From positions 186,001 through 250,000 of the forward strand of contig NZ_FQXT01000004.1 in NCBI RefSeq assembly GCF_900130045.1: a stretch of 64,000 bases of DNA, in the 5' to 3' direction. Below, in pieces: positions 40,498 to 57,966 of this stretch. This DNA is from Leeuwenhoekiella palythoae. GTDB taxonomy: Bacteria; Bacteroidota; Bacteroidia; Flavobacteriales; Flavobacteriaceae. The first letter of the stretch is position 1; every line of letters begins with the position of its first letter. The notes under the pieces were generated by a model. It was not told the DNA's origin, ran no database searches, and saw only the letters and a list, made by a program, of their open reading frames with translations. A program made the translations under genes and the position numbers.

Positions 40498-41319
40498 ATG
40501 AAAGTTGTTTTTATAATTATACTCGTTTTTAGTTATTCTTTTAATGTTTTAGCTTGTAGCTGTGATATTCCAAAGCCTGCTATTGAGTTTTATGCTTCAG
40601 ATTATGTTTTTGAAGGAGAAGTTATTAGTAAAATCTATGCTAAAGACTCATTAACATATACCGTAAAGTTTAAGGTTTTAAAGCATTATAAATTTGGTGA
40701 TGAGCCAGAATTTATAAGCTATACATTTCCTGCTGAAGGAGAGTTTCCAGGTCATTTTACATCCTGCGATTGGAGTGTTGATTTTGGGGAGAGATGGCTT
40801 GTTTACAGTAATTTATACAACGGAAAGCAAAGTTTTAGTTTTTATTGTTCAAATAGTAAACCTATTAATGAACATTATGGGATCAGAAAATCAGAGCAAA
40901 AAGTTTTAGATAATGGTAATAAACTTGAGCTTGAAAATTACAGGTTTATTAATCACGAGGCAAAGCCGATAACTGATGTAGACTCTATTCTGTCAGCATA
41001 TAATTCAAAAGATTTGAACTTAGAATCAAAGACATTTGCTCCTTTCTGGATAGATGTAGATAAAGAGGGAAATTTGACAAGTGTAAATTTGAGCCCTCGA
41101 GAAAATAGAGAAATGGAAGTTGTAGATACTATTTACGGGCTTAATATTCGTAAAAATCAATATTCTAAACCGAGAAATGAATTTGAATCAGTAGCGCTTG
41201 AAATTGCCAAAAAGGTTAAAAAATGGGATACATATGTTTTTCACGGCAAGCAGGTAAGGTATAGAACATTTTTAACTTTTATCTTGGATGAAAATTCGAA
41301 AATAGTTCTTTATAACTAA
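40498..41319 (+). CDS. Secreted protein with N-terminal CxC (TIMP/netrin-like) domain
   Basis: A 273-residue protein with a signal peptide ending LAC. The mature N-terminus is CSCDIPKPAIEFYASDYVFEGEV (C20 and C22), the opening typical of TIMP/NTR-like OB-fold domains: CxC, a proline, then a strand reading VFxGEV. Two further cysteines lie near 90 and 120. The second half is unlike anything I recognise; it has a Gly-poor TonB-C-like feel (LTFILDENSKIVLYN at the end). The DNA is clearly more AT-rich than era next door, perhaps acquired. The biological role is unknown. Confidence 0.65.
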   Translation: MKVVFIIILVFSYSFNVLACSCDIPKPAIEFYASDYVFEGEVISKIYAKDSLTYTVKFKVLKHYKFGDEPEFISYTFPAEGEFPGHFTSCDWSVDFGERWLVYSNLYNGKQSFSFYCSNSKPINEHYGIRKSEQKVLDNGNKLELENYRFINHEAKPITDVDSILSAYNSKDLNLESKTFAPFWIDVDKEGNLTSVNLSPRENREMEVVDTIYGLNIRKNQYSKPRNEFESVALEIAKKVKKWDTYVFHGKQVRYRTFLTFILDENSKIVLYN

Positions 41320-41346
41320 AAAAAAAGCCCCACATCGCGGGGCTAT
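41317..41346 (-). terminator. Rho-independent terminator of the arsenosugar operon
   Basis: AGCCCC (41326-41331) pairs with GGGGCT (41339-41344), with extra G-C pairing near the loop. On the minus strand it is followed by nine T. It ends the long minus-strand operon after arsM, facing the convergent TIMP-like gene. Confidence 0.9.
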
Positions 41347-41376
41347 ATATTTCTGCCACCGGCTGCAAGCCAGCGG

Positions 41377-42345
41377 TTAGCAGCATCCACCACCATCATA
41401 GTGAAAGGTGCTTTCACTGATAAATATATCGTCGCGACCTAAAGCAGCAAGAGCACCAGCCGTCTTATCGCAAACAGCCAATGGTTGGTTTTTCAATAAA
41501 ACGTGGCCTTTTTTATCATCAAAATAATCCTCAGCGCCGTAATAGATGGCAGCTTTTCCGGTGAAGATACACGGGCCATCCTCGGGCATCGGGTCTTTGA
41601 TCGCTGCAACCTCAATCGATTCGATGTAGATGAGTTCGTCTGTCGGGTAGTTTTTAGGATCAAGAATGCGATACGGCTTGCGCGCACGGATTTCGATAGT
41701 GCCAAAACCGGCGTCGGTCAAGGCTTTTACATATTCTTTTATAGGTAAACTTCCGCTTAGGCATAATGCACGTAGGCGCTCATCGTTGCGCAAGGTTTCA
41801 TTTATTTCCTGCTCACAAGTAGGATCGCTCATTACGAGTCTTCCGTGAGGTTTGAGCACGCGGTACATCTCTTCGATCGCTTTTTTCAGCTCTTCTGCTT
41901 TAAAAATATTAAAGAGGCAATTTTGAGCAGCTACATCAATGCTGTTATCTTCCACAGGTAAGTGGAGCGCGTCTCCTTTTTTAAGATCTACAAATTCACT
42001 CTTGAACCAAGGATTCAACTCCTCAGCTTCCTCAAAGTTTTTACGCGAAGCTTCGAGCATTTCATCGACCACATCCACGCCAACCACGCCGCTTTTTTGG
42101 CGCGAGAAATAAGCGAACTGTAAGAGCTCCATTCCGCCGCCTACACCCACATAAAGTACGCGCGGATCGTTAGTAAGATCACATGCATTTACGGTGCTTC
42201 CGCAGCCGTAATTCATCTCTTGCATGATCTTAGGGATTTTCAATCCCGGTAATTCCCAGATAGGATTTGTAGTGCAACAAAGTCCAACGTCTGGAGTGAG
42301 TGCAGCGTCACGATATACATTTTTGGTGGTTTCTAAATAGCTCAT
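41377..42345 (-). CDS. arsM: Arsenosugar-type arsenite S-adenosylmethionine methyltransferase
   Basis: A 322-residue methyltransferase of the ArsM subgroup linked to arsenosugar synthesis. The SAM motif is YVGVGGGMEL (65-74), and DVVDEMLEASR follows. Cysteines suited to As(III) are C23/C24, C48, C55 and the one in AAQNCLFN; the tail is DGGGCC. The C-terminal part (GKAAIYYGAEDYFDDKKGHVL) is specific to this subgroup. It methylates trivalent arsenic stepwise, giving the dimethylarsenite used by ArsS, encoded in the same operon. It is the last gene, 27 bp after a phosphoesterase-like gene and just before the terminator. Confidence 0.9.
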   Translation of the reverse strand: MSYLETTKNVYRDAALTPDVGLCCTTNPIWELPGLKIPKIMQEMNYGCGSTVNACDLTNDPRVLYVGVGGGMELLQFAYFSRQKSGVVGVDVVDEMLEASRKNFEEAEELNPWFKSEFVDLKKGDALHLPVEDNSIDVAAQNCLFNIFKAEELKKAIEEMYRVLKPHGRLVMSDPTCEQEINETLRNDERLRALCLSGSLPIKEYVKALTDAGFGTIEIRARKPYRILDPKNYPTDELIYIESIEVAAIKDPMPEDGPCIFTGKAAIYYGAEDYFDDKKGHVLLKNQPLAVCDKTAGALAALGRDDIFISESTFHYDGGGCC

Positions 42346-42372
42346 AATTTCGTTTTTTTAGATTAATACCTT

Positions 42373-43200
42373 TTAAAGTTGAATGCCAAAACCTTGCAAC
42401 CCGCTTTCATATGCCGGCAAAATTTCGGTGTTGTCCCAAATTCCTGTGATCAGGGTTCGGGCGTATTCCTGCGGTAAAAAGTCGGTTTGCATATGTTGGT
42501 TTGCCAATTTGTAATTGTAATCCATCGTGTGATGCGTAAACTTAAGTTGGCCATCCTGTTCCTCTAAAATCGCATACCACACGTGCGGACTTCCATCATT
42601 TGCAGGCATCCCGATCACTCCGGGATTGAGCCAGAGTTTTTCATTCTGACTGTGATTAAAAGGTAAACCGCAATGACCAGCGATGATCACATCGGCACCC
42701 GTTGCATCAAAGTTTTTCTGTTTAAGGGACCAATCGGTAGACTTATATACAAATTCAGAGACGTTAAAAAAGTCGCCGTGAACCATAACGAACTTTTTAT
42801 CCACAAAGCGGAATTGTATGTGATCAGGCAAAGTGGCAATGAAGTCTAACGAACTTTTACTGAGTTTACTTTGCGCGTACGGAAACCACATTTGACTAAA
42901 CCCATCGCAACGCGAACCTTTTCTAAAATCACAACCGCAATCTTCTGCACCATCCCGCAACTGGATCTCCACATTACCTAAAACACTTTGCGCTCCCCAA
43001 ATTTTAAAGAGTTGCACGACTTCTTCGGGTTGTGCGCAATACCCCACAATGTCCCCTGTGCACAAGCAATTTTGTGGTGCGATGTGTTGTGCTTCGGCTA
43101 TTCGCTTCAGCGCTTCTAAAGCTTGAAGATTGCTGTACACTCCACCAAACAAAAGCACCTTTCCGTCAAGGTTGCCAAGGTCTACCACAGTTTTATCCAT
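42373..43200 (-). CDS. Metallophosphoesterase-like protein of the arsenosugar operon, degenerate metal motifs
   Basis: A 275-residue protein (ATG 43200) with the calcineurin-like phosphoesterase frame. The motifs are altered: the usual D-x-H-x-N is GGVYSN (19-24); GDIVG (49-53) is intact; GN(H/C)D is GNVE (75-78); VHGDF (140-144) is present; GHTH is GHCG (175-178). Losing the first Asp and His should weaken two-metal catalysis. Added cysteines are C45, C47, C55, C88, C90, C98 and C177. Its start overlaps the symporter gene by 19 bp and arsM follows by 27 bp. It may act on a phosphoester of the arsenical or bind arsenic; both are inference. Confidence 0.75.
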   Translation of the reverse strand: MDKTVVDLGNLDGKVLLFGGVYSNLQALEALKRIAEAQHIAPQNCLCTGDIVGYCAQPEEVVQLFKIWGAQSVLGNVEIQLRDGAEDCGCDFRKGSRCDGFSQMWFPYAQSKLSKSSLDFIATLPDHIQFRFVDKKFVMVHGDFFNVSEFVYKSTDWSLKQKNFDATGADVIIAGHCGLPFNHSQNEKLWLNPGVIGMPANDGSPHVWYAILEEQDGQLKFTHHTMDYNYKLANQHMQTDFLPQEYARTLITGIWDNTEILPAYESGLQGFGIQL

Positions 43201-44519
43201 GCCGGTATCATATATAAAATTAAACAACATCCCGCGGCCCAAATGTTGGCCCATAGTAGGTCTGCATAGCGACCTTGAGTTAAAATCCAACATTCAGGAA
43301 TCAGGTTAAAAACCAATAAAAGTCCGAAACCGATCCCGCAAAAAACACTCAGGTAAAAACTGAGTTTAGGGGCAGGGAGTTTCCAAAAGAAAAATATAGG
43401 CGTAAGGCCAATAACCATCGTGCCTGAAATGGTTGTTGCCGATAAAATTTCAGCATCTAAAAAGATAGGAATTGTACCCAGAACTACCAATACACACATC
43501 GCTAAACGACCAAAACTGATACTTTCGCCGAGTTTTAAATCCACTGCTGCCAACTTGGAAAATGATGAAAACGTAGAGTCTAAAGTCGAAGCCGCTGAGG
43601 TGATCATTATAAAATTGATGATCAACAAGATTACGCTACCAAAGGCTTTTCCTACTTCAACTGCAGCTTGGCCTTGCATTCCCATTGCTTTGGCATAAAC
43701 GCCAATGACGCTGAAAAGCACAATACAGATCGCTCCTAAAATTCCTGCCCAAAGAAAACTTCTAAGCGTGACTTTTGGCGAACTTAAAAAGCCGCGGTCT
43801 GTCAAAACGGGGTCGTGAAAGGGATAACTCAAACTTTGAATGAGCGCGGCAAACAATAAATTCAAACCAGTGTCAAAACCCCAAACTCCAGATTGCAAGG
43901 TTTCTGCCACTGTAAAATTAGTAGTCGAATAAATGCTCGCCAAGATCACAAACAGCAGAATCCCAAAAAGTCCCATTTGCAAAACGTCGGTAAAAATCGA
44001 ACTGCTCAAGCCACCCTTGAGCGAATACGCAAGCGTCAATAGCGTAAAAACAATGATCGAGGCGTAATATGGAGTGCTGCCAATATCTCCAAAATAACTT
44101 CCGATCACCATCGTATTACTCCAAACCTCATTAAACAGTCGTATCGCGATCAACACCGAAAACACACGCATCGCATTTTTACCGAAGCGCGAGGTGAGAA
44201 ACTGATGCAAACTGGTAAAACCACCTTGCGTACGCAGCGAATAAATAAGAATACCGGCCATTACAAATGAGAGGTAATATGCTGCGTAGGCGACACCACC
44301 CACGATGCCGAACTCCAACCCCAGATTGGCTGCATTGGTAATACTTTTGGCAAAAATCCAGGAAATGATCAAGCTACCGGTAAGCATAAAGGCATTGGGC
44401 GCCTTCCTGCGATGCGTTGCTTTAAAAAAATCATCGGTTGTTTTTGCCAGAGGCGAAAGGAAAAAGAGCGTCACACTAGACGCAATAATCAAGATCCACT
44501 GCCAGATTGCTATATCCAA
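43182..44519 (-). CDS. Sodium:solute symporter family protein in the arsenosugar operon
   Basis: A 445-residue inner-membrane protein with 12-13 hydrophobic segments of the SSS (SLC5-like) family. Typical features are NAANLGLEFGIVGGVAYAAYY near 62, a helix with TLAYSLKGGLSSSIFTDVLQ (sodium-binding region), and ITSAASTLDSTFSS, which holds the SS/ST pair of the Na2 site. The start is TTG 44519, 10 bp after the susD stop; its end overlaps the next gene by 19 bp. With SusC and SusD it would complete a two-membrane import path. The substrate is unknown. Confidence 0.85.
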   Translation of the reverse strand: MDIAIWQWILIIASSVTLFFLSPLAKTTDDFFKATHRRKAPNAFMLTGSLIISWIFAKSITNAANLGLEFGIVGGVAYAAYYLSFVMAGILIYSLRTQGGFTSLHQFLTSRFGKNAMRVFSVLIAIRLFNEVWSNTMVIGSYFGDIGSTPYYASIIVFTLLTLAYSLKGGLSSSIFTDVLQMGLFGILLFVILASIYSTTNFTVAETLQSGVWGFDTGLNLLFAALIQSLSYPFHDPVLTDRGFLSSPKVTLRSFLWAGILGAICIVLFSVIGVYAKAMGMQGQAAVEVGKAFGSVILLIINFIMITSAASTLDSTFSSFSKLAAVDLKLGESISFGRLAMCVLVVLGTIPIFLDAEILSATTISGTMVIGLTPIFFFWKLPAPKLSFYLSVFCGIGFGLLLVFNLIPECWILTQGRYADLLWANIWAAGCCLILYMIPAWIKLW

Positions 44520-44529
44520 ATTGGTAATT

Positions 44530-45972
44530 TTAATTATCCCACCAAACGGGACTGTTTAAACTGTTGTCATTTGTGGCTGCTGCCGCGGCTTGATAATTAT
44601 CTGCATTCAAAGCTTGTTCTTCTGCCGGATACGGCATACGCACAGGAATGATCCCATCATTCAAGCTCGCTGCAACGGCCCTAAATTCAGGGAAGCCGGT
44701 GCGACGCCATTCGATCCAACCTTCATAACCGTTGATGAGGTTGGCGATCCATTTTTGCGTGATGATCTGTTGTACAGGTGTGGTTCCTGCAGCGTAATAC
44801 GCAGCCGGGCCGGTCAGGTACTCTGCCGGAAGATCGGTCAGCCAATAATCAAAAGCCAACTGAACGCCTTGATTGTATAAAGATTCCGCATCTGCGCTTA
44901 TGAAACCTTTTTCCGCAGCTTCCGCAAGGATAAAATGCGTTTCCCAAGCCGTCATAAAATTAGCATCTAATTGCGCAGTGTTCTCACGGAAAAGTGTTCC
45001 GGCCAACGAATAATTAGCAGGCTCGATCGAAGTTTGTGAGGCATCAATTCCGTTGATGAGTCCGTTAAATTCACCGGAAGTGGAATTGGCAAAAGGACGG
45101 AAAAATACCGAAATACGATCATCGTCAAGATCGGTCAAAATATCCTCCATAGTTTCAGAAAGCACAAAGTTGTTGAAATCTCCTGCGCGCAATTGTGCAA
45201 AGCGGAAACTATTAGGAGCACTTGAAGTAAAATCAAAAACGGCATTATCTGCATTAGTAGTGATAAAATTTCCTTCCGCATAAATTGAAGCGATAGCGGC
45301 TGCTACATTTTCCTGACTTGAAATACGCATCAAAGCTTTTAGCTTTAAAGAGTTTGCAAACTGTATCCATTTGCTGAGGTCTCCGTCAAAAAACAGATCG
45401 CCTTCTAGAGCCACAGCGCCGGAGTAGGCATTGATCGCGGCAATCCCCTGATCCAGGTTGTCCAGAATTCCGCCTTCTGCTAAATAGATGTTTTCTTGAG
45501 CATCATAAGGGGCGGTTACGGTTCCGTCAATTCCATTAAATGCTTCAAAATAGGGAACATCGCCAAACAAATCGGTAAGACCTTGCGCCATATAAGCTTT
45601 GAGAATCAATGCCGGTCCTTCATAAACTTTAAAGGTTTCAACTTCTTGAGCCTGTTTAAGCAAGAGTTCGTTGTCTCTGAGATTGGTGTAAAAAATAGGC
45701 CAGGGATTTCCACCCAATTGCGGCGATTTTAGTGCGTGTCGGTCAAAGAGGTTAAAGTCTAAAGCCGTGCGATGCTGCGAAAGGAGATCGCCTGCGGCAA
45801 AACCTTCATAGCTCATTTGCTCGCCAAAATCATAAATAACCTGGCGTAAAAGCAATCCCGGTTGCACGCTTACCGGCGCATTGGGATTGGTGTTTTTTTC
45901 TTCAAAATCTGTAGTACAAGCCGTAAAGAAGCTCAGACTCAAGATCAGAATGGTATATATCGTGTTTTTCAT
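44530..45972 (-). CDS. SusD/RagB-like substrate-binding outer membrane lipoprotein
   Basis: A 480-residue lipoprotein (lipobox FFTAC, C19). The opening CTTDFEEKNTNPNAPV and the helical TPR-like body with EGPALILKAYMAQGLTDLFGDVPYFEA match the SusD-like families, and the end RMPYPAEEQALNADNYQAA is the usual SusD C-terminal box. SusD lids the SusC channel and captures ligand at the cell surface. It follows susC by 30 bp. The type is closer to SusD-like_2 than to starch SusD. No glycoside hydrolase accompanies it, so a small molecule or peptide ligand is more likely than a polysaccharide. Confidence 0.9.
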   Translation of the reverse strand: MKNTIYTILILSLSFFTACTTDFEEKNTNPNAPVSVQPGLLLRQVIYDFGEQMSYEGFAAGDLLSQHRTALDFNLFDRHALKSPQLGGNPWPIFYTNLRDNELLLKQAQEVETFKVYEGPALILKAYMAQGLTDLFGDVPYFEAFNGIDGTVTAPYDAQENIYLAEGGILDNLDQGIAAINAYSGAVALEGDLFFDGDLSKWIQFANSLKLKALMRISSQENVAAAIASIYAEGNFITTNADNAVFDFTSSAPNSFRFAQLRAGDFNNFVLSETMEDILTDLDDDRISVFFRPFANSTSGEFNGLINGIDASQTSIEPANYSLAGTLFRENTAQLDANFMTAWETHFILAEAAEKGFISADAESLYNQGVQLAFDYWLTDLPAEYLTGPAAYYAAGTTPVQQIITQKWIANLINGYEGWIEWRRTGFPEFRAVAASLNDGIIPVRMPYPAEEQALNADNYQAAAAATNDNSLNSPVWWDN

Positions 45973-46002
45973 CTTCTAACTAGTTTTGATAGGCTTCAAG
46001 CC

Positions 46003-49000
46003 TTAGAAATTAAAGCCTGCTTTTAAACCAATACTGCGCGTGGTAGCGTAGCTCATATCTTCAACCCCGCTTACGAAGCCGGTGCCTTGCACTGCGAGTT
46101 GCTCAGGATCAAAATGCGGTATTTCTGAAAAGGCAAAGAGGTTGCGACCTACAAGTGCCAAGTCGATGTCCATCCCGCTACTTAAGCCTAAAAAGCCATC
46201 CTTTAGATTAAAGGTATACCCCACTGAAAACTGACGAAGCTTTAGATACGAAGCGTCATAAATATTGTTTTCTTCGTGGTTACGATCGTAAAATTGGCGG
46301 TAATAGGTTTCTGCAGAAACCGCTGTGGTATTTTGCACATACTGCGGATTTTCTGCTGTCCCTGTATTGACAACACCTTGCGGAACAATGCCTTCTTCCG
46401 GGCGATTTGCTGTTTCTGCGAGTTGGCCACCCACAGTTCCCAAAGCGCGTGTGCGAGAAACAAGTTCGCCACCTTGTCGCCAGTCAAATAAGAAACTCAA
46501 ACTCCAATTTTTATAGCTGAAGCTGTTGTTCCAACCTAGCATAAAGTCAGGGGTGTAGTTTCCTATTTTTTTGAGGTTATTATCTGCGATATAGCTTCCG
46601 GAAGGAGTTAAGATAAATTGTCCGTCTTCGGTTTTTTGATAGCCGGTTCCATAGATATCGCCAATTTTTCCGCCTTCTTCTACCTGAAACCAAACTGTCT
46701 GATTGGCACTGTCGTAAATTCGGCTGTATGCTAAAGTCAGCCTTCCGTCTGATTGCGGTAAACTTTCCACTCTCGAAGTATTACTACTAAAATTGAACGT
46801 AGTATTCCATTTAAAATTAGCGGTCAGAATCGGTGTGAGATCTGCGATAAGTTCGACCCCTTGTGTACGTACTTCACCGCCATTCACCACTTGTTGATTG
46901 TATCCCGAGGAGATCGCGATGGGTAGCGAAATGATCTGATCCTTAGTCAACGCGTTATAATAGGTCGCATCTAATCGAATACGATCTTTAAGAAATCTGA
47001 TGTCTGCACCTACTTCATACGACGTGGTTTGCTCTGGTTTCAGATTAGCATTAGGTATAAAATTTTGATTGCTGAAAGTGGGTTGCCCATTGTAAGCCGT
47101 CTGCGAAATAAAAGCATCACTGGTTTGATAAGGCTGCGTATCGTTACCTACTTGAGCTACACTCGCGCGAAGTTGCGCATAGGAAAAAGCTTTGGGTAAC
47201 TCAGCCACTTCAGAAAGAATAAAACTCGCCGAAGCCGAAGGATAAAAGAACGAAGTCCCATCTACCGAAAACGGCGTGGCAAGGGCACTTGACCAGTCGT
47301 TACGGCCGGTAAGGTCTAAAAATAAAAAGTCGCGGTAACCCAGTTTTGCAATTCCGTAAAGGGAATTGATGCGCTTATTTGATTCAAATTGAAATACATC
47401 AATTGGCGAAGCGGCATTATTCAGATTGAAAATTCCCGGTTGTGCAAGATTTACCGTTTGCGACTGTTTGGTGCTGGCTTTTTGGTCCAGACGGTTTCCG
47501 CCCAGCGAAACATCAAGAGAAAAGTCGCCAAAGATGTTGTTATAATTCAGTAAGAAATCAGTGTTGATCTCGCGATAAAACACATCGTGCTCGGCATAGC
47601 CTCCATTTTGAAAACGGTTAGAGCTGAAAGCACGACGCAGCTGGCGCGTTTCTGAAGAATAATCCATTCCGGAACGCAGCGAAAGGCTGAGGTTTTCTGT
47701 GATTTGCTGTTTGATAGAAATGTTCCCAAAAACCCGGTCCCGGTTGAAAGAATTCCGGTTTTCATACATCGTAAAAAACGGATTGTCAAAATACGTGTAG
47801 TTAAAGGAGTAGTGCTGCACACCTTCTAATCCCGGTTGCCAATATTGGCGCAAGCTGTTAATGTCTAGCGAGCGCGGTCCCCAAGCCACAAGCGCATAAT
47901 TGACGTTCTCACTTCCGTAGCCGTTAGATGGGCGGTTGTCACTCCCGGAATTCACATAACTGATAGAAGCATTAAACGTGGTTTTGTCAGTAGGTTTAAA
48001 ATTCAGTTTGGTAGCTACCGTTTGGCGGTCCAGATTTACTCCGGGAATGATCGATTCGCTACGTAAATCGGTAAACGAAATGCGATAGTTTCCTTTATCA
48101 AAACCGCTGCCAATTGCCACGTTATTGATCGTGGTCACACCAGTCTCATAAAAATCTTTCAGGTTATCGGGATGCGAATTGAAGGCTGTTGGTGTGATGC
48201 CGATCCCGTTATAAAGCGAAGTGTCTCCACCGCGAACGACCGTTCCGTCAGGTAAGGTTACAGGTGAATCAAATTGTGCGATCAAAGTGCCTTGATCTAA
48301 ACGCGGTCCCCAAGAATAGGAGATAAGATCGTTGACCCCGCCACCTAAACCATCAACAAATTCAAACTGACCGGAATTCCCCTGTCCGTATTGATTTTGA
48401 AATTCAGGAAGTTTAAAAGGCGTATCTACAAAAACCGAAGTATTGATGCTGATGCCTAGACCTTTGCTTTGGCTTCCGTTTTTAGTTTCAATAATGATTA
48501 CACCGTTTGATGCGCGGGTGCCGTAAAGCGCTGCGGCACTTGGGCCTTTAAGCACACTTACCGAAGCAATATCGTCTGGGTTGACTTCCATCGCGCCGTT
48601 ACCAAAATCGATCTCTTGAAAACCGGCTGCGGCTTCGTTACTTTCATTAAAAACCGTGTTGTTATTGATGGGCGTTCCGTCAACGATAAACAGCGGATTG
48701 TTGTTTGAAAAGGAAGCCTCGCCGCGAATGGTGATCTTTGAAGAAGAACCCACGCCGGTAGCGCCTTGTGAAACCGTAACACCGGCTAATTTTCCGGCAA
48801 GGTTGTCGAGGAAGTTCGGCGCTTTTACCGCAGAAACTTCTTCTGCTTCGATGGTTTGCACTACATAACCCAATTCTTTAGTCTCGCGCTCGAGACCGAG
48901 CGCCGTTATGACCACTTCATCGAGGTCTGTAGTAGATTCTTGTAAGGTGATATTAATGGTAGTTCGTCCGTTGATTGATGCGGTTTGGGTGATGAAGCCA

Positions 49001-49218
49001 ATTGCTGAAAAGCGTAGTTCGTTAGCTGCAGCAGGAACCTCCAGCGAAAACATTCCGTTTTCATCGGTTATCGTGGCAGCATCGGTATTTACGGCAATGA
49101 CATTTACAAACGGTACGGTCGTTCCGTCGCTTGAGGTGGTTACCGTACCCGAAATGGTAGTTTGGCTATTGGCAACTGCACACAGCAAGAGCATTAGCCC
49201 AAAATAAAGGTGTTTCAT
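46003..49218 (-). CDS. SusC/RagA-type TonB-dependent transporter
   Basis: A 1071-residue outer-membrane receptor: signal peptide (1-18, ending ANSQ), a carboxypeptidase-like regulatory domain (about 20-100), the plug with SVLKGPSAAALYGTRASNGV and the SusC-specific LAGVTVSQGATGVGSSSKI in outline, and a 22-strand barrel ending in GLKAGFNF. TonB energy drives uptake of ligand captured by SusD. It lies 70 bp after a glycosyltransferase gene and inside the arsenosugar operon, which is an unusual setting for a SusCD pair. There is no adjacent sigma/anti-sigma pair. Confidence 0.93.
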   Translation of the reverse strand: MKHLYFGLMLLLCAVANSQTTISGTVTTSSDGTTVPFVNVIAVNTDAATITDENGMFSLEVPAAANELRFSAIGFITQTASINGRTTINITLQESTTDLDEVVITALGLERETKELGYVVQTIEAEEVSAVKAPNFLDNLAGKLAGVTVSQGATGVGSSSKITIRGEASFSNNNPLFIVDGTPINNNTVFNESNEAAAGFQEIDFGNGAMEVNPDDIASVSVLKGPSAAALYGTRASNGVIIIETKNGSQSKGLGISINTSVFVDTPFKLPEFQNQYGQGNSGQFEFVDGLGGGVNDLISYSWGPRLDQGTLIAQFDSPVTLPDGTVVRGGDTSLYNGIGITPTAFNSHPDNLKDFYETGVTTINNVAIGSGFDKGNYRISFTDLRSESIIPGVNLDRQTVATKLNFKPTDKTTFNASISYVNSGSDNRPSNGYGSENVNYALVAWGPRSLDINSLRQYWQPGLEGVQHYSFNYTYFDNPFFTMYENRNSFNRDRVFGNISIKQQITENLSLSLRSGMDYSSETRQLRRAFSSNRFQNGGYAEHDVFYREINTDFLLNYNNIFGDFSLDVSLGGNRLDQKASTKQSQTVNLAQPGIFNLNNAASPIDVFQFESNKRINSLYGIAKLGYRDFLFLDLTGRNDWSSALATPFSVDGTSFFYPSASASFILSEVAELPKAFSYAQLRASVAQVGNDTQPYQTSDAFISQTAYNGQPTFSNQNFIPNANLKPEQTTSYEVGADIRFLKDRIRLDATYYNALTKDQIISLPIAISSGYNQQVVNGGEVRTQGVELIADLTPILTANFKWNTTFNFSSNTSRVESLPQSDGRLTLAYSRIYDSANQTVWFQVEEGGKIGDIYGTGYQKTEDGQFILTPSGSYIADNNLKKIGNYTPDFMLGWNNSFSYKNWSLSFLFDWRQGGELVSRTRALGTVGGQLAETANRPEEGIVPQGVVNTGTAENPQYVQNTTAVSAETYYRQFYDRNHEENNIYDASYLKLRQFSVGYTFNLKDGFLGLSSGMDIDLALVGRNLFAFSEIPHFDPEQLAVQGTGFVSGVEDMSYATTRSIGLKAGFNF

Positions 49219-49288
49219 TTTTTTGTTTCTGATTAGTAAAAGGAAGCGGCTTGATTGTACAGCACACCGCGAGACAAATGATGTTGTC

Positions 49289-49969
49289 TTAAATACTTAA
49301 ACTAACCGGAGAACCTTTGTTGAAGTAGTTTTGATACTGAAAGGCATCAAAGACGAACTTTTGGTTGGTGATTGGTTGCGTCCCTCCAAAATGTATGCGT
49401 AAAAGCAGTTTTTTGATCAAATATGGAAGTTGCCCGCGATCTAAAAGTGCAGCAACATCAAAAACCGAATCTAAGTCGTGCAGCACCTCAAGTATTGTAG
49501 CCTGAATCTTTTGCTCACGTACTTTTCTCAGAATGATTTGCGTAAGTTTTGAGGTCTGCCAAGGGAGTTCTAAAAGTGCTTGTGCATTAAAATGAGTTTT
49601 GTTTAGACCCATTAAATAGAACCCGCCGTCAACGGAAGGACCAATGACCATCGGGCAATTTTGCAATTCGTTTGCGGCGGTGAGTAGATGCTGTTTGGTT
49701 AAATGCGGACTGTCATTCCCAATACTGATGACATTGTCATAGCCCAGCTCATAAATTTCTGTAAAGGCTTGTGTATAGCGTTCAGCAAACGTGGCTCCTT
49801 TTTGATTTTTTTCAGAATAAATGTAAAAGGGGAGTCCGCTTTGCTTTACCGTTTTTAAAGTCTGCTTATTGAGCGCTTCAAAGAGTTGCACGCCGTTGTG
49901 CATCGACTTGTGTCGTGCATCTTCTTCCGCAGAGCGGGCAAAAATTAATATGGCGGTTTTAGTATTCAA
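49289..49969 (-). CDS. DUF2064/CofC-like glycosyltransferase, divergent second copy
   Basis: A 226-residue protein of the nucleotidyl/glycosyltransferase-A type placed in the family associated with arsenosugar synthesis (TIGR04282/DUF2064). Conserved parts are ISIGNDSPHL (the D-x-D-like site, about 82-91) and IGPSVDGGFYLMGL (about 113-126). The N-terminal nucleotide loop has drifted: where the operon's other copy reads TRNPELGKVKTRLA, this one reads ARSAEEDARHKSM. The start is TTG 49969, after a stop 30 bp upstream. It sits between arsS and susC. Activity may differ from that of the first copy. Confidence 0.8.
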   Translation of the reverse strand: MNTKTAILIFARSAEEDARHKSMHNGVQLFEALNKQTLKTVKQSGLPFYIYSEKNQKGATFAERYTQAFTEIYELGYDNVISIGNDSPHLTKQHLLTAANELQNCPMVIGPSVDGGFYLMGLNKTHFNAQALLELPWQTSKLTQIILRKVREQKIQATILEVLHDLDSVFDVAALLDRGQLPYLIKKLLLRIHFGGTQPITNQKFVFDAFQYQNYFNKGSPVSLSI

Positions 49970-50014
49970 TAAAGCGGTAAACGCAGCGTGTGCTTCTGAT
50001 TATTTTATGTTGAA

Positions 50015-51082
50015 TTAAGCTACAGTTCCCTGGCAGCTGCTTCCTGCGCCGGCAGTACAGCCGTAGCAATGCTGAGAAATGATAATGTTACGATCGTTAA
50101 GCACATCCTCATTATACTCTGAAATATGCTTCACTTTTGAATTTACTTTGAGATCCAGCATTTGATTGAAATCACAATCGTACAACCAGCCGTCCCAACT
50201 AATTGAGATCGTATTAGTACACATCACATTCGCCACCGCAGCCGGGTTGTAAGCCTCAACAAGTTGGTACATATAATCCTCGTAGTTTTCCGAAGCGATC
50301 AAGTAATCCAGAAAGCGTGCGATAGGAAGATTGGTAATTGCAAACAGGTTATGAAACTGAATGCCGAAATCTTCCATCAAGGCTTTTTTGAAATCCTTTT
50401 CCATTCCTGCCTGATCTGAAGGAAGGTAAGCACCGTTAGGATTATACACAAGGTCTAAGCGTAAGTCGCTATCTGGCATTCCGTAACCTACGGCATTTAA
50501 TTCCTGTAAAGCTTTGATCGACTTGTCAAAAACGCCTTCACCACGTTGCTTATCGGTCTTACCACGTGTCCAGTGCGGCATCGAGCTCACCACGTGTACA
50601 TTGTGTTTCTTGAAAAATTCCGGTAGATCGTAGTATTTCTTATTGGCGCGAATGATCGTCAGGTTACTGCGTACAATAAAATCTTTAATCCCTGCTTTAC
50701 TCGCTTCTTCTACAAAACGTCTGAAATTAGGATTCATTTCAGGAGCACCACCGGTAAGATCCAGTGTATGTGCGCCAGTGTTTTTGATCACTTCCAGACA
50801 TTGCTCCATCGTTTCCCAAGTCATTATTTCTTTACGATCGGGACCGGCATCTACGTGACAATGCTCACACACCTGATTACACATATATCCCACATTGATC
50901 TGAAGGATTTCCAGTTTTTTAGGTCGTAACGGAAATTGATTGGTCTCTTTGATCTTTTTGGCAAACGTAGGAAGTTCGCCATCGGCAAAAATTCCACCGG
51001 ATAAAACCTCAAGCTGTTTATTGGCTTGAGCGAGATCGTCGTGACGTTTATGTAGGGATTTTTTTGTTTGAGTTGCAGGCAT
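50015..51082 (-). CDS. arsS: Arsenosugar biosynthesis radical SAM protein
   Basis: A 355-residue radical SAM enzyme. The cluster motif is C68-x3-C72-x2-C75 (GYMCNQVCEHCHVDAGP), followed by TLDLTGGAPEMNP. The C-terminal Cys-rich part ends in HCYGCTAGAGSSCQG, typical of the rSAM/Cys-rich group now linked to arsenosugars. ArsS joins the 5'-deoxyadenosyl group of SAM to dimethylarsenite, giving dimethylarsinoyl-deoxyadenosine. The final motif is GSSCQG, with an ordinary TGC codon where some relatives have selenocysteine. It lies 70 bp after the AhpD-like gene. Confidence 0.92.
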   Translation of the reverse strand: MPATQTKKSLHKRHDDLAQANKQLEVLSGGIFADGELPTFAKKIKETNQFPLRPKKLEILQINVGYMCNQVCEHCHVDAGPDRKEIMTWETMEQCLEVIKNTGAHTLDLTGGAPEMNPNFRRFVEEASKAGIKDFIVRSNLTIIRANKKYYDLPEFFKKHNVHVVSSMPHWTRGKTDKQRGEGVFDKSIKALQELNAVGYGMPDSDLRLDLVYNPNGAYLPSDQAGMEKDFKKALMEDFGIQFHNLFAITNLPIARFLDYLIASENYEDYMYQLVEAYNPAAVANVMCTNTISISWDGWLYDCDFNQMLDLKVNSKVKHISEYNEDVLNDRNIIISQHCYGCTAGAGSSCQGTVA

Positions 51083-51152
51083 AAAAGCGTTTATTTTTCT
51101 TTTTCAGTATTGACTAAGATAGGATTAAGTTGCTAGAATATAGCCTTTAGTG

Positions 51153-51491
51153 CTACATTTCTAGCTTATTCACTTTATTCATCATCATCGTACCGTGTAC
51201 AAGCGTAGCGCCACTCTTGATCGCAGCACCTACGTGAATGGCTTCCATCATTTGTTCTTTGGTCACGCCGCGTTGCAAGGTGTCTTTGGTATACGCGTCG
51301 ATGCAATACGGGCATTGTTCGGTATGCGCAACAGCAAGGGCGATAAGCGCCTTCTCTCGTGCAGTAAGCGCACCTTCTTCAAAAACTTTTCCGTAGTAAT
51401 CAAAGAATTTTGTACCCAGTTCCTCGCTCCATTCGGTGATCTTACCAAATTTTCTCAGGTCTGCCGGATCGTAATAATTGTTGTTAGCCAT
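51153..51491 (-). CDS. AhpD/carboxymuconolactone decarboxylase-like protein of arsenosugar clusters
   Basis: A 112-residue all-helical protein of the CMD/AhpD family. It carries the redox pair C60-x2-C63 (HTEQCPYCIDAYT) with the upstream glutamate, the arrangement of AhpD peroxidase partners. Small proteins of this kind recur beside arsS in arsenosugar loci and are labelled peroxidase-like. A role in reducing As(V) intermediates or a thiol pool for ArsM is reasonable but inferred. It lies between the PNP (about 90 bp) and arsS (70 bp) genes. Confidence 0.88.
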   Translation of the reverse strand: MANNNYYDPADLRKFGKITEWSEELGTKFFDYYGKVFEEGALTAREKALIALAVAHTEQCPYCIDAYTKDTLQRGVTKEQMMEAIHVGAAIKSGATLVHGTMMMNKVNKLEM

Positions 51492-51581
51492 GATGATTTT
51501 TTGTTTTGAGTTATAAAAAGCATAACTACACGAGTAGTTACGGAGATAATTGTGTTGTGGTTTTTTTAATGCGGAAAAACC

Positions 51582-52394
51582 CTAAAGTTTTTCAATAAGC
51601 TGCGTAAAAAGTTTAACCATATCAGGTTCTGCTTTTCCGGCGGCAGCCATAATATCTTGAATGTCTACAGGTGCCAGGTTTTCTGGGTCGCACTCATCGG
51701 TAATTACTGAAACGGCAGCAACCGGCAAATCGAGATGGTTGGCGACAATCACTTCTGGAACGGTGCTCATTCCAACCGTGTCAGAGCCGATGATCTTAAG
51801 GAATCTATATTCGGCGCGGGTTTCAAGCTGTGGACCAACTACAGATGCATAAACACCTTCGTGTAACGTGATTTCTTCGGTCTTTGCGATATCCTTAAGA
51901 ATGTTGCGCATAGACACGTCGTATGGTTCGCTCATATCAGTAAAACGTGAACCTAATTGTTCAACCCCTTTAAACGCAAGGGGAGAACCACCTTGCAAGT
52001 TGATGTGATCTTCAATAAGCATAATCTCGCCTTTTTTAAAGTTGAGGTTGATCGCGCCGGCTGCATTACTGATGAGTAGTTTTTTAATACCAAGTTCGTT
52101 CATAACACGCACCGGGTAGCTCACATCGCGTAACGTGTAGCCTTCATAAATATGAAAACGACCTTGCATCACGATCACTTTTTTTCCGCCTAAAGTTCCG
52201 TAGATCAGTTTTCCGGTATGGAATTCAACCGTGGCAGTTGGAAAATTAGGAATGTGGTTGTAGCTCACCGAACTGATGATCTCAACTTTATCTACAAATT
52301 GGCCAAGACCGGTACCTAAAATAATACCGATTTCCGGAGCTTCAAAACCGCGCTCTTTTAAAAACTGCGCAGATTCTTCAATAAATTTTTTCAT
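51582..52394 (-). CDS. Purine-nucleoside phosphorylase, trimeric type
   Basis: A 270-residue PNP of the trimeric (family 2) class: ILGTGLGQF phosphate loop, MQGRFHIYEGY, NAAGAIN, GPQLETRAEYR (E191) and MSTVPEVIVA. It cleaves nucleosides with phosphate to base and ribose 1-phosphate. The residue equal to Asn243 of human PNP, which selects 6-oxopurines, is Asp here (D233 in VITDECDP), a change known to favour 6-aminopurines. In this operon it fits removal of adenine from the ArsS product, yielding an arsinoyl-deoxyribose 1-phosphate. It sits 6 bp after the glycosyltransferase gene. Confidence 0.93.
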   Translation of the reverse strand: MKKFIEESAQFLKERGFEAPEIGIILGTGLGQFVDKVEIISSVSYNHIPNFPTATVEFHTGKLIYGTLGGKKVIVMQGRFHIYEGYTLRDVSYPVRVMNELGIKKLLISNAAGAINLNFKKGEIMLIEDHINLQGGSPLAFKGVEQLGSRFTDMSEPYDVSMRNILKDIAKTEEITLHEGVYASVVGPQLETRAEYRFLKIIGSDTVGMSTVPEVIVANHLDLPVAAVSVITDECDPENLAPVDIQDIMAAAGKAEPDMVKLFTQLIEKL

Positions 52395-52400
52395 GGATTT

Positions 52401-53081
52401 TTATTTCAAATGTTCTGGTAAAAAAGGCTTGAAGGCCTCAATACCTTTTATGTCTTCGTAATAGTCTACATCATTACGGGTTTCTAGCAATTTAACAGAT
52501 TCTGAGCTTAAATCGGCAAGCGTGTCTTTAAGAACGGTTTCGGTTCCCCAAGTTTTATTACTGAAAAGTTCTGGCTTTAGGAAGGTCATTCCAAGTAAAT
52601 AATACCCACCGTCTTCAGCCGGACCTACCACAAAATCGTGCTCATCAAGCGCTGCAAATGCTTCTTCTAGATCTTTTTGAGAAAGGTCATACATATCGCT
52701 ACCAATGATGATCGCTTTTTTATAGCCGCTCGCAAAAGCTCCTGAAAACGCCTTTTGCATTCGAGCTCCCAGATCATCACCGTGTTGTAATTTTTTGGTA
52801 AACGTGTTTTTATCCCAATAATCTGAAGCACGTATTTTTTCTGAATAATAAACCTGTTTATCTACGCTCAAATTTTGGGTGATGTTAACCGTGTGCTGAA
52901 GCAAAAACTTATAGATCTCAAGCGCTGCAGCATCACCCACACCGCTTGCAAGTCGGGTTTTTACTTTACCCAATTCGGGATTGCGGGTAAAGATTAAAAG
53001 GGCTTTATCTGAGGTAGGGAAATGAAATTCTGTCTCGAAATCTTTTTCAGAATCGGTGTCTTTTTTACTTAATAGACCCAT
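52401..53081 (-). CDS. TIGR04282-type arsenosugar biosynthesis glycosyltransferase
   Basis: A 226-residue protein with a 25-residue leader and then the nucleotide-binding start ALLIFTRNPELGKVKTRLA. Further blocks are LQHGDDLGARMQKAF, IIIGSDMYDL (metal site) and VVGPAEDGGYYLLGM. This is the full DUF2064/TIGR04282 pattern, assigned to arsenosugar clusters. It probably moves the arsinoyl-ribose unit to an acceptor such as glycerol or a phosphoglycerol, but no direct evidence is visible. It lies 29 bp after the rhodanese gene and 6 bp before PNP. Confidence 0.87.
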   Translation of the reverse strand: MGLLSKKDTDSEKDFETEFHFPTSDKALLIFTRNPELGKVKTRLASGVGDAAALEIYKFLLQHTVNITQNLSVDKQVYYSEKIRASDYWDKNTFTKKLQHGDDLGARMQKAFSGAFASGYKKAIIIGSDMYDLSQKDLEEAFAALDEHDFVVGPAEDGGYYLLGMTFLKPELFSNKTWGTETVLKDTLADLSSESVKLLETRNDVDYYEDIKGIEAFKPFLPEHLK

Positions 53082-53110
53082 TAGATGTTGTTAATTGATA
53101 AAAGTCAAAT

Positions 53111-53596
53111 TTAATGAACCGCAATTCCCGTACTTAAATAATCTTCCCAATTTTTTGAAAAGGTGTGTACTTTTTGAGTGCTTTTGCCTTTGGCATTCAC
53201 AATTTTAAAGCCTGCGTCTTTCCAAGCAAAAATTCCGCCGTAGAGATTATACGCAGTTTTGCCGGTTTTACGTTCAAGCTTTTCGCCAAAATCTTCGCTA
53301 CGAATGCCCACGGTGCAATACACTACAATTGGCTTTTTCTTATTTGATATGGAATCTAAAAATGCATTTTGAGGTCTTTCTCCAACCCAAATCGCTGACG
53401 GAAGATGGCTAACCTCAAACTCTTCTCTTTTGCGTGTATCTAGAATGGTGTAAGCTTCGAGATTCATTTTGAGTTCTTGCACAGAAATATAAGGAATGCT
53501 TCGGGTGTTGTAGGTTTCCAGAAGTTTATCAATAGATTTTTTCTGGCAGAAGCCAAAAAGAGGAAGTAGAAGAGCGAGAAGCAGGTGAAATTTCAT
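53111..53596 (-). CDS. Secreted rhodanese-like domain protein, first gene of the arsenosugar operon
   Basis: A 161-residue protein with a signal peptide (1-18, cleavage near CQKK) and a single rhodanese domain. The catalytic C94 lies in VVYCTVGIRSE, and DTRKREEFEVSHLPSAIW is the typical entry. The domain transfers sulfur or handles other thiol chemistry; in an arsenical pathway it might make thio-arsenicals or reduce arsenate, as Acr2/Cdc25-like relatives do. Location is periplasmic by the signal peptide. It is the promoter-proximal gene, divergent from galM. Confidence 0.88.
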   Translation of the reverse strand: MKFHLLLALLLPLFGFCQKKSIDKLLETYNTRSIPYISVQELKMNLEAYTILDTRKREEFEVSHLPSAIWVGERPQNAFLDSISNKKKPIVVYCTVGIRSEDFGEKLERKTGKTAYNLYGGIFAWKDAGFKIVNAKGKSTQKVHTFSKNWEDYLSTGIAVH

Positions 53597-53684
53597 TCTG
53601 AAATATTAAAAAGGCAGTTTCTTAGTTCTGGTAAAACTTACGAAGAAGCGCTTTTTTTGGTTTGATTTTAAAGGAATCGATAAG

Positions 53685-53728
53685 CACGTGAATTACAGCA
53701 CGCTTTAAAAGAGGGCGGTAATTCCGTG
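53685..53728. promoter_or_regulatory. Inverted repeat in the divergent region between arsenosugar operon and galM
   Basis: CACGTGAATTAC (53685-53696) and GTAATTCCGTG (53718-53728) are inverted copies apart from one missing base, spaced 21 bp, centred about 110 bp from the rhodanese start. No classical -7 box is obvious here on the minus strand. A regulator site is possible; no arsR-like gene is nearby. Confidence 0.4.
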
Positions 53729-53778
53729 ATGTTTCCCTTTAGTATTTCATATATTTAGCTTTAAAAAACAACGTTCCT

Positions 53779-54789
53779 TTGATAACAATAAAACCCTTTG
53801 ATACCACGCAAGACGGTCGTCCCGTTTTAAGTGTAAAACTGAAAAACTCCTCAGGGATGGAAGCGCATTTCATCACCTATGGCGCCATACTACAACGATT
53901 AATTGTTCCGGACGCCGGCGGATTTACCGATGTGGTTTTGGGATATAATGACTTGCATTCTTATGAAGAAGATACCTTTTTTATGGGGCAATTGGTGGGT
54001 CGAAGCGCAAACCGCATCGCTAATGCAACAGTGAGCCTAGACGGAAAAAAAGTTGCGTTGAGTGCCAACGAAGGCACAAATCATCTTCACGGCGGTTTTG
54101 AAGGTTTCGGTAAGAAAATTTGGGAGGTTGCTGAGCTGGAAGATGAGGTGATTTTTTCCTATTTGAGTAAAGATGGCGAAGAAGGTTATCCCGGGAATTT
54201 AGAGACTAAAATGTTTGTCAAACTAACTGAAGAGAATGCGCTAGAAATGCGTCTCGAAGCTACAACCGACAAAGAAACTATTGTAAATCTTACCCGCCAC
54301 GAATATTTCAATCTGAATCCTTCAAGTGGAAAAAGTATTGCAAAGCATCAACTATTGATTAACGGAGAAGGAATTTTACCAAAAACAGAGCAGAACGTTC
54401 CTGACGGAAGCGTAAAACCGGTGGAGAACACACCTTTTGATCTGCGTGAACTTCGCTTTTTAGAACAGCCACTGGCTCAACTTGAAGGTGGTTTTGATCA
54501 TAATTATGTTTTGGAAAAATACAGTAAAGAAGTACCGGCTGCAGTACTTGCTGCACCTTCGGGATCGCCTAAAATGGAATTGTACTGCACCCAACCGGGA
54601 ATCCAGTTTTATAGCGCCAACGGAATTGAAAAGATAGAGAACAAGACAGTAATGATTCAAGGACCTTCGCCGGCCTTATGTTTAGAACCACAGTTTTTTC
54701 CGGATACGCCCAATCACCCCAATTTTCCGTCAACGGTTTTAAAACCGGGAGAACAGTATAAGCATACCATCACGTATAAATTTTTATAA
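53779..54789 (+). CDS. galM: Aldose 1-epimerase (galactose mutarotase)
   Basis: A 336-residue mutarotase. The start is TTG 53779, followed by ITIKPFDTTQDGRPV. Motifs are ITYGAILQRLIVPD, the catalytic-site region NRIANATVSLDGK, GTNHLHGGFEGFGKKIWE, the NLTRHEYFNL histidine block, and GGFDHNYVLEK. It interconverts alpha- and beta-aldohexoses and feeds GalK. It abuts the glycerol kinase fusion gene (stop 54789, ATG 54790), so the two are translated together. It has no signal peptide. Confidence 0.93.
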   Translation: MITIKPFDTTQDGRPVLSVKLKNSSGMEAHFITYGAILQRLIVPDAGGFTDVVLGYNDLHSYEEDTFFMGQLVGRSANRIANATVSLDGKKVALSANEGTNHLHGGFEGFGKKIWEVAELEDEVIFSYLSKDGEEGYPGNLETKMFVKLTEENALEMRLEATTDKETIVNLTRHEYFNLNPSSGKSIAKHQLLINGEGILPKTEQNVPDGSVKPVENTPFDLRELRFLEQPLAQLEGGFDHNYVLEKYSKEVPAAVLAAPSGSPKMELYCTQPGIQFYSANGIEKIENKTVMIQGPSPALCLEPQFFPDTPNHPNFPSTVLKPGEQYKHTITYKFL

Positions 54790-57700: not shown

Positions 57701-57966
57701 CAGACGTAAATGATAGACTAGTGCGCGCTGAATTGTGGTACAGTGTTAATTATGAAATGACCAACAGTCTGGCAGATTTCTTTGTACGTCGTACCGGGAG
57801 ACTCTATTTTAATATCGAAACGGTAACGCAGTATCGTCAACAAGCAGTGCAGGATTTTATCAATTATTTAGATTGGGATGAAGAGCGCGTTGCTTTTGAA
57901 AATAAAAAGCTTGACGAGTTGTTATACGATGCAACGCATTTTTATGAATCTGAGATTCTTAGCTAA
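54790..57966 (+). CDS. Bifunctional glycerol kinase / glycerol-3-phosphate dehydrogenase fusion
   Basis: A single 1058-codon frame. Residues 1-495 are a full glycerol kinase (AFDQGTTSTRAI at 8-19, NQRETTVVWD, GGACANDYLMQF). Residues 520-1058 are a full GlpD-type FAD-dependent glycerol-3-phosphate dehydrogenase (GGGVTGAG 528-535, FASGTSNKSTKLVHGGLRY, IPRGRVTYVGTTDT, GGKLTGYR). A basic linker of ~25 residues joins them. Together they turn glycerol into dihydroxyacetone phosphate. There is no stop or frameshift at the join; an in-frame GTG (56308) could give a separate GlpD. Usual genes are separate. It abuts galM and precedes a HAD phosphatase; no glpF is nearby. Confidence 0.93.
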   Translation: METSYIIAFDQGTTSTRAILFDEHGKVVAISQKELKQYYPQSGWVEHDPEMIFNDQKEVFEAVVQKAKVPLEAIKGIGITNQRETTVVWDKKTGKPVYNAICWLDKRTEAICEGLRERGLSRYILKNTGLVIDSYFSATKIKWILDNVEGAREKAEAGDLLFGTVDSWLIFKFTGKHRTDHTNACRTMLYNIKDMAWDQELLEELTIPKKMLPKVQPSSSDFGRITYQDAEFPIYGVAGDQQAALFGQGGYKSGMAKNTYGTGCFMLLNTGKKPSFSKNGLITTLCCTLEDKKPKYALEGSVFVGGASIQWLRDQVGIIENAEETNAICQSIPPLEDLFFVPAFNGLGAPYWDGNAKGSIQGLTFSTGRKELVKATVEALAYQVTDLIKAMEEDSGKQIKTLKVDGGACANDYLMQFQADLLDAQVDRPEMLEVTAWGAALLAGIKVGIWTQKDIATLRSADQVFEPEMDVRTRNHKQESWELAVMRTRSGYAETIEKEKEPLRFSVRDRKRYIKKAKKKKFDLVIIGGGVTGAGIALDAATRGMSVCLIEKNDFASGTSNKSTKLVHGGLRYLKQMEIGLVKESGTERAIVHKLAPHLVVPEKMLLPLIEGGQYGKFLTSVGLKVYDLLANVDDEDKRRMLTKEETLEREPILDESTLLGGGFYAEYRTDDARLTIELMKKAAGFGAICLNYCEMDDFVYNYKGKITAVNCKDHNTGKTFEVEGRTFVSATGPWVDKLRKKDESMNNKHLHLTKGVHLVFPKEKLPVHQSLYFDVPDGRMIFAIPRGRVTYVGTTDTNYSGSLDRVVATKADIKYLLDAVNGTFPDINLTEEDIESSWAGLRPLIHEDEKDPSELSRKDETFISKSGLISIAGGKLTGYRKMAQRVNETVSKRLKEKFGKTYDESRTQHIALTSHALRNTQEVEDYQNYLEQELEFMQIDNAAFKAWYLVSTYGKQTDIIKNKINYFRDADVNDRLVRAELWYSVNYEMTNSLADFFVRRTGRLYFNIETVTQYRQQAVQDFINYLDWDEERVAFENKKLDELLYDATHFYESEILS

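Follow-up and report, generated by a model that had tools for sequence, protein, structure and literature searches.

We analysed a 64,000-nucleotide stretch of the Leeuwenhoekiella palythoae genome (contig NZ_FQXT01000004.1, positions 186,001 to 250,000; hereafter the window, numbered from its first letter), in which eleven co-directional open reading frames (ORFs) fill positions 41377-53596 of the minus strand. In order of transcription they encode a rhodanese-domain protein, a CofC-like transferase (GT1), a purine-nucleoside phosphorylase (PNP), an AhpD-like protein, the radical SAM enzyme ArsS, a second transferase (GT2), SusC, SusD, a sodium/solute symporter (SSS), a protein of calcineurin-like phosphoesterase fold (MPE) and ArsM. 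Five of these genes, GT2-SusC-SusD-SSS-MPE, form a conserved uptake cassette that is tied to ArsS; the gene counts given below support this tie strongly, and it is new here. To the fuller reading, in which the operon makes or remodels arsenosugars and imports a ready-made arsenosugar or a close arsenoriboside through this dedicated cassette, we give an even chance.

The association was counted in 198 related genomes, with ArsS scored as present above the TIGR04167 cut-off, which gave ArsS in 89 genomes. Neighbourhoods of up to 20 kb were read around the 88 ArsS loci outside the window, several of them cut by contig ends, and their genes were labelled by BLASTP against the window proteins. All four of SusC, SusD, SSS and MPE are present in 22 of the 88 (the 8 ArsS-bearing Leeuwenhoekiella genomes besides that of the window, and 14 others), or in 23 of 89 with the window included; this ArsS-anchored count, which the first-pass annotation had proposed, places the SusCD pair and the symporter with the arsenosugar genes. 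Of these 22 loci, 19 show GT2 as well, and in the remaining three (L039, L042, L059) the stretch ends inside SusC. The cassette lies mostly after ArsS and GT2, and before ArsS in L039, L042 and L059; L009 has SSS and MPE without SusCD.

Orthologous SusD (at least 64% identity, the next group reaching at most 40%) was found in 24 of the 198 genomes and orthologous SSS (at least 66% identity) in 25, all of which have ArsS, and neither was found in any of the 109 related genomes without ArsS. The probability of 24/24 by chance is about 6e-10, or about 3e-5 with genera counted once, both figures ignoring relatedness. SusD lies in the ArsS locus in 23 of the 24 genomes; the exception (G099) has an intact five-gene cassette about 180 kb away. 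The closest named relative is Leeuwenhoekiella blandensis MED217 (SSS 95% and SusD 97% identity).

Two further samples were drawn. A public genome collection that overlaps partly with the 198-genome set was scanned with the SSS alignment and gave 335 relatives, of which the best 80 were kept (69-95% identity). ArsS is present in 78 of these best 80 loci, and the two others (L103, L124) are cut contigs that still hold GT1 or PNP. SusC, SusD, SSS and MPE are together in 77 of the best 80 (missing in L111 and in the cut contigs L114 and L127), and GT2 was recognised in 73. By their titles these loci are mostly from Flavobacteriaceae; one tree row is from Weeksellaceae.

The second sample comprised 345 genomes drawn evenly from the class, window genome included. 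An SSS orthologue was found in 11 of the 345 (54-70% identity outside the window genome) and ArsS in 55; all 11 fall within the 55, and none of the 290 genomes without ArsS has the orthologue (probability by chance about 7e-10, or 2e-8 once the family of the window, as far as listed, is left out). The cassette sits at ArsS in four of the 11 (the window genome, G443, G522 and G438), about 69 and 91 kb from ArsS in G304 and G396, and on a different contig from ArsS in the remaining five. Since all 11 genomes have ArsS while the cassette is not seen linked to it in seven, shared neighbourhood alone does not explain the tie. The order GT2-SusC-SusD-SSS-MPE also occurs in L209-L213, L215 and L216, the last with a more distant SusCD type (43/38%); in L214 MPE is on the opposite side and strand of the cassette, and in L217 and L218 GT2 was not recognised. 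The uptake cassette follows ArsS across the class, and there is good support for its acting in the arsenosugar pathway.

Family membership in the run was called by NCBIfam and Pfam profile scans with curated cut-offs (Table 1). ArsS and an arsenosugar-type ArsM both score above their cut-offs in this one run, as does SusC, which is followed by a SusD lipoprotein whose Cys19 is invariant in 19 aligned rows. The scans agree with the first-pass annotation on ArsM, ArsS, PNP, the AhpD-like protein, the rhodanese, SusC and SusD. It had also named two CofC-like transferases: GT1 is one by the TIGR04282 cut-off, whereas GT2 falls below it and, unlike GT1 in the alignment, has no N-terminal GKVKTR-type motif. 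Its list covered ten of the eleven genes and left out the MPE gene.

Table 1. Features of the arsenosugar run and its 3' end, in order of transcription, with the evidence for each.
Feature	Coordinates	Strand	Evidence
Rhodanese-domain protein, gene 1 of the run	53111..53596	-	PF00581 61.6 bits; NF045521 185.9 bits, cut-off 145
GT1, TIGR04282 CofC-like transferase	52401..53081	-	TIGR04282 220 bits, cut-off 134
PNP, purine-nucleoside phosphorylase	51582..52394	-	NF006054 336 bits, cut-off 218; TIGR01700 295.3, cut-off 293.35
AhpD-like arsenosugar-associated protein	51153..51491	-	TIGR04169 190 bits, cut-off 120
ArsS, radical SAM enzyme, arsenosugar biosynthesis	50015..51082	-	TIGR04167 438 bits, cut-off 300; PF04055, DUF3641
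GT2, divergent DUF2064 transferase, cassette gene 1	49289..49969	-	TIGR04282 96 bits, cut-off 134; PF09837
SusC, TonB-dependent outer-membrane receptor	46003..49218	-	TIGR04056 599 bits, cut-off 368; TIGR04057 signature
SusD-like surface lipoprotein (SusD-like_2)	44530..45972	-	PF12771 309 bits; lipobox Cys19 by eye
SSS, sodium/solute symporter	43182..44519	-	TIGR00813 36.8 bits, cut-off 184; structure model
MPE, calcineurin-like phosphoesterase-fold protein	42373..43293 (start probably 43200)	-	PF12850 41.8 bits; model
ArsM, arsenosugar type, last gene of the run	41377..42345	-	NF038099 571.8 bits, cut-off 400
Terminator-like hairpin and T run, 3' of arsM	41326..41344	-	Pattern scan; consensus match only

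The gaps between the genes, in run order, are 29, 6, 90, 70, 45, 70, 30, 10, -112 and 27 bp, in keeping with the earlier description of eleven minus-strand genes with a largest gap of about 90 bp, and the single terminator that it placed after arsM corresponds to a strong hairpin of 8 pairs followed by eight T (41344-41326). From this spacing the eleven genes are probably co-transcribed. Promoters were sought over 41300-54000 with the exact flavobacterial -7 motif, TAnnTTTG, and a -33 TTG 17-23 bp upstream. Two matches to TAnnTTTG were found, one at 50969 inside arsS and one at 53113-53106 that lies across the stop codon of the rhodanese gene and the gap before GT1. No TTG stands at the spacing sought from either, and the exact pattern occurs neither upstream of the rhodanese gene nor in the gaps around SusCD.

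The C-terminus of GT2 (49289-49321) reads mostly NKGSP and is strongly conserved behind a variable stretch. We rejected the idea of a regulatory RNA between GT2 and SusC: Rfam gave nothing credible (its only match was SNORD115, E 0.95, on the opposite strand within the SSS gene), and NKGSP is kept through changing codons, which marks it as a protein motif.

The first-pass annotation had called SSS a sodium symporter, an assignment that the sequence profiles do not carry and the structure model does. The protein scores below the TIGR00813 cut-off, matches no Pfam family at E 0.001 and has no real relative in a sequence search of the PDB (best E 0.56). With its model (pLDDT only 70), the first 36 Foldseek rows are all SSS proteins at TM 0.66-0.77 by query length, among them SGLT1/2, CHT1, SiaT, vSGLT, NIS, SMCT1 and DUR3, which places it in the SSS fold. 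A relative (46%) on a Marinobacter plasmid lies near chemotaxis genes.

For MPE, a start at 43200 is more likely than one at 43293, because Met32 is well conserved, and the overlap with the SSS gene would then shrink to 19 bp. The model (pLDDT 81.8) has as nearest folds the Ap4A hydrolase/phosphodiesterase SapH (3qfm) and 3rqz. Calcineurin-like phosphoesterases canonically carry the motifs D.HGN and GH.H; in all 18 aligned rows the first is replaced by GG(V/I)YSN and the last by GHCG, so that the motif-1 Asp and His and the last His are lost and the set of metal ligands is incomplete, while Asp81, Asn107, His172 and His207 are invariant. The motif GG.YSN.QA picked 113 proteins from the fetched loci (some genomes counted twice), of which 112 have C.C.F..G..C and 108 have GHCG.PF. 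A relative on a Roseomonas plasmid (L189, 37%) shows the same ligand losses together with Cys119, Cys121, Cys129 and Cys208, and adjoins TIGR04282, DUF547, two radical SAM genes and PhnC/D/E-type genes. MPE may be a changed phosphoesterase, and our guess is that it could bind a soft ligand such as trivalent arsenic. An MPE-like gene also stands beside arsA on a Flammeovirga plasmid.

A different cassette is found in relatives without ArsS. The SSS cassette is present, together with ArsS and ArsM, in nine of the 13 Leeuwenhoekiella genomes in the sample; the remaining four (G007, G008, G009, G012) lack both ArsS and NF038099 ArsM and carry instead GT2, SusCD (about 45/35%), an ABC importer with a YnjB-type binding protein (PRK11622) and a nucleoside hydrolase (chance of the 9/4 split 1 in 715 if the genomes are independent). 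The same kind of ABC cassette is present in G013, also without ArsS, and a partly similar set in G185, again without ArsS, where no hydrolase was found in the 12 kb read, which starts at a contig end. GT1 with PNP is kept in five of these six genomes: in G009 (L180) the ABC cassette directly follows rhodanese-GT1-PNP, in G007, G008 and G013 GT1 is elsewhere in the genome with PNP and rhodanese, and in G185 it is together with PNP, whereas in G012 (81% complete) only GT2 was seen. Beyond the cassette in L180, two ORFs (338 and 649 aa, cut) resemble, by size and orientation only, the aldose epimerase and glycerol kinase fusion next to the window operon.

A kinase stands beside the hydrolase in three of the four Leeuwenhoekiella genomes with the ABC cassette (L177, L179 and L180); L178 (G185) has such a kinase with no hydrolase in view, and L176 is cut before that place. 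The best NCBIfam match of these kinases is methylthioribose kinase, TIGR01767 (E 4e-28 to 3e-33 in L177-L180), at scores below the cut-off of 275 bits (98.5-115.4 in the four loci, 129.5 in L195), and the best PDB match of the L177 kinase is 2olc. The gene for the next step of methionine salvage, mtnA, is absent from all seven genomes tested, in a search that was positive in 9 of 14 control genomes. Arsenosugars are 5-deoxy-5-dimethylarsinoyl-ribosides, and a hydrolase that opens ribosides next to a kinase for 5-substituted riboses fits the needs of arsenosugar salvage; the ABC cassette therefore reads as one for salvage of 5-deoxy-5-substituted ribosides, the arsenosugar scaffold. The obvious alternative is salvage of methylthioadenosine or 5'-deoxyadenosine. 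Methylthioadenosine salvage shares with the ABC cassette the two-step logic of a nucleoside-cleaving and a methylthioribose-kinase-like enzyme acting on a 5-deoxy-5-substituted riboside; it differs in that the kinases of the ABC cassette score below the methylthioribose kinase cut-off and mtnA is absent from the seven genomes tested.

Two other loci in this setting may be recorded. In G013, which has neither ArsS nor ArsM, two genes precede rhodanese-GT1-PNP-DUF547-TIGR04283, one weakly ADP-ribosylglycohydrolase-like and the other methylthioribose-kinase-like (L195, 10525-12896). In the arsenosugar operon L048 (7647-15186), GT2 is followed by a different importer set, made up of a YnjB-type ABC importer, a TonB receptor that has no SusD and a small radical SAM protein; the pair of receptor and radical SAM protein recurs in L191 and L192, with no arsenosugar genes in view.

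If the cargo of the window cassette is a ready-made arsenosugar or a close arsenoriboside, from algae or other bacteria, SusD and SusC would carry this scarce compound across the outer membrane at the expense of TonB energy, and SSS would move it across the inner membrane with sodium. The compound would then enter the cell's own pathway at the stage of 5-deoxy-5-dimethylarsinoyl-ribose (or its 1-phosphate), which ArsM, ArsS and PNP would supply de novo. The activities of ArsM and ArsS are established (PMC8552651, PMC12159101); what is carried and in which direction, what PNP does at that node, and what MPE and GT2 contribute are our inferences. The first-pass annotation had suggested import of a substrate or acceptor, such as glycerol glycosides or arsenosugars scavenged from algae. 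Its link between SusCD-SSS and the arsenosugar genes holds; between its two kinds of cargo, the hydrolase and kinase of the relatives without ArsS would, indirectly, favour ribosides of the arsenosugar kind. As a tentative extension, with the odds somewhat against it, ArsS-bearing marine Bacteroidota would import arsenosugars by SusCD and symporter, and some relatives without ArsM and ArsS would have abandoned their synthesis and only salvage them, with SusCD, an ABC importer, a nucleoside hydrolase freeing 5-deoxy-5-dimethylarsinoyl-ribose, a methylthioribose-kinase-like enzyme phosphorylating it, and the kept GT1, GT2 and PNP.

Several observations weigh against an arsenosugar cargo or a fixed bond between cassette and pathway. 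The cassette is missing from 65 of the 89 ArsS genomes, so that arsenosugar synthesis does not need it and the SusCD set is an accessory module, not general to arsenosugar operons. Seven ArsS loci (L024, L027, L061, L069, L083, L084, L086) have GT2 without SusCD and L048 has GT2 with another importer; GT2 is thus not strictly bound to SusCD. The genome of L048, G075, has ArsS and an ABC importer with a different receptor, which means that the SSS and ABC kinds are not strictly exclusive. Six of the 24 cassette genomes lack NF038099 ArsM, with no significant excess over the others (Fisher 0.56, or 0.18 counting one Leeuwenhoekiella). The nucleoside hydrolase and kinase are found in the relatives and not in the window operon, which has MPE in their place, a protein for which the reading has no step. 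Finally, phosphonate loci with PbfA are among the nearest related SusCD groups, and the imported compound may therefore be an organophosphorus one.

Trees were built of 35 SusC and 35 SusD rows, for which the program gave a long-branch warning and the 18 cassette rows were chosen from many (the unlinked L089 included). All cassette rows fall into a single fully supported group (100/100 for SusC), and the ABC-linked rows into another. These two groups are neighbours in the SusC tree (91/95), with the phosphonate-type rows outside, whereas in the SusD tree the ABC group goes with the phosphonate rows instead, weakly (83/50). From these trees, the SusCD pair may descend from a phosphonate-type importer, and part of the cargo could resemble a phosphonate. 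Besides the ABC-linked group, the nearest relatives of the window pair are the phosphonate-type loci (SusC 43-45%, SusD 33-38%), in which SusCD is accompanied by PbfA ((R)-1-hydroxy-2-aminoethylphosphonate ammonia-lyase), phosphodiesterases and a purple-acid phosphatase (L090 7609-18028 in G011, L173, L174, L181-L183, L186); unlike the window, the stretches read showed no recognisable GT2, SSS or MPE. PbfA scores above its cut-off in L090 and was called by BLAST in the other loci, which are probably phosphonate-use loci of Flavobacteriaceae.

Import of organophosphorus compounds (phosphonates or phosphate esters) would account for the arsenosugar link if phosphate starvation brings arsenate into the cell, so that the two functions would be required at once. 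It would suit the company of the related SusCD group just described, the PhnC/D/E-type genes beside the Roseomonas relative of MPE, a PstS-like ABC importer in L061 (5857-9268; 192.5 bits, cut-off 206.6) and a PiT/CysP-like permease in 6 of the 88 arsenosugar loci (L021, L040, L053, L062, L065, L082; the one representative scanned was below cut-offs). Such import would be useful without ArsS too, yet the orthologous SusD and SSS were in none of the 109 related genomes, and the orthologous SSS in none of the 290 class-sample genomes, that lack ArsS; MPE, moreover, has lost metal ligands expected in a working phosphoesterase. We consider this explanation unlikely.

Much the same low probability attaches to import of an acceptor (glycerol, a glycosyl-glycerol or a glycerophospho compound) that the transferases would then decorate. 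Arsenosugars are ribosides of glycerol derivatives, the fold of MPE is of phosphodiesterase type, and an aldose epimerase and a glycerol kinase/glycerol-3-phosphate dehydrogenase fusion adjoin the operon, but these genes are on the other strand and divergent from it, SusCD is not needed for glycerol, and the substrate of the hydrolase and methylthioribose-kinase-like enzymes of the relatives without ArsS would be the sugar, not the acceptor. The adjoining pair lies at 53779-57966 (fusion of 1058 aa), and the same flank of the other Leeuwenhoekiella loci, L001-L008, has two ORFs comparable in length and orientation, one of 336-362 aa followed by one of 633-717 aa that is truncated where the stretch ends.

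That simple methylated arsenicals such as dimethylarsinate are imported as feedstock for ArsS is very improbable. The cassette genomes with ArsS and no NF038099 ArsM (6 of 24) and the oxyanion type of several alternative transporters in arsenosugar operons would suit it, but ArsM is not missing significantly more often where the cassette is present, the small size of dimethylarsinate would let it pass through porins, and a related cassette occurs in genomes without ArsS, where the feedstock would be useless. An ordinary nutrient importer, inserted by chance and kept by linkage, has next to no probability and is rejected by the orthologue counts in all three samples: with 62 matches to the TonB-receptor plug domain in the genome, it is not unusual for an operon to have a SusCD pair nearby, but the orthologous set is kept in many genera at differing operon positions and is restricted to ArsS genomes even where it was not seen linked.

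Compared with known systems, the window run shares arsenosugar-type ArsM and ArsS with the Synechocystis arsM-arsS genes, has them in one run with TIGR04282, TIGR04169 and PNP genes, and differs in its built-in uptake cassette. It also lacks the TIGR04283, DUF547 and OlsE-like genes often seen in ArsS loci of its relatives. With the SusCD glycan and nutrient importers of Bacteroidota it has in common the tandem SusC-SusD genes, plug and barrel domains and, by eye, a signal sequence and lipobox; unlike the glycan importers it contains no glycoside hydrolase or sensor, and its SusCD pair, tied to ArsS, is partnered by a symporter and a degenerate phosphoesterase-like protein. The available text of PMC8552651, PMC12159101 and PMC8787705 makes no mention of SusC, SusD or a symporter with arsenosugar genes, and no account of bacterial arsenosugar uptake was found in the open-licence literature, judged by titles.

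The cassette draws attention to a phosphoesterase-like protein with conserved cysteines, which turns up again on a Roseomonas plasmid. Arsenosugars are a main organic form of arsenic in seaweeds, and with a widely conserved uptake cassette the marine arsenic cycle would gain a marker gene for uptake as distinct from synthesis; scavenging of arsenosugars would become testable by deletion of a single gene. If the arsenosugar reading is true, the SusCD pair would be one that serves an organometalloid and not a glycan.

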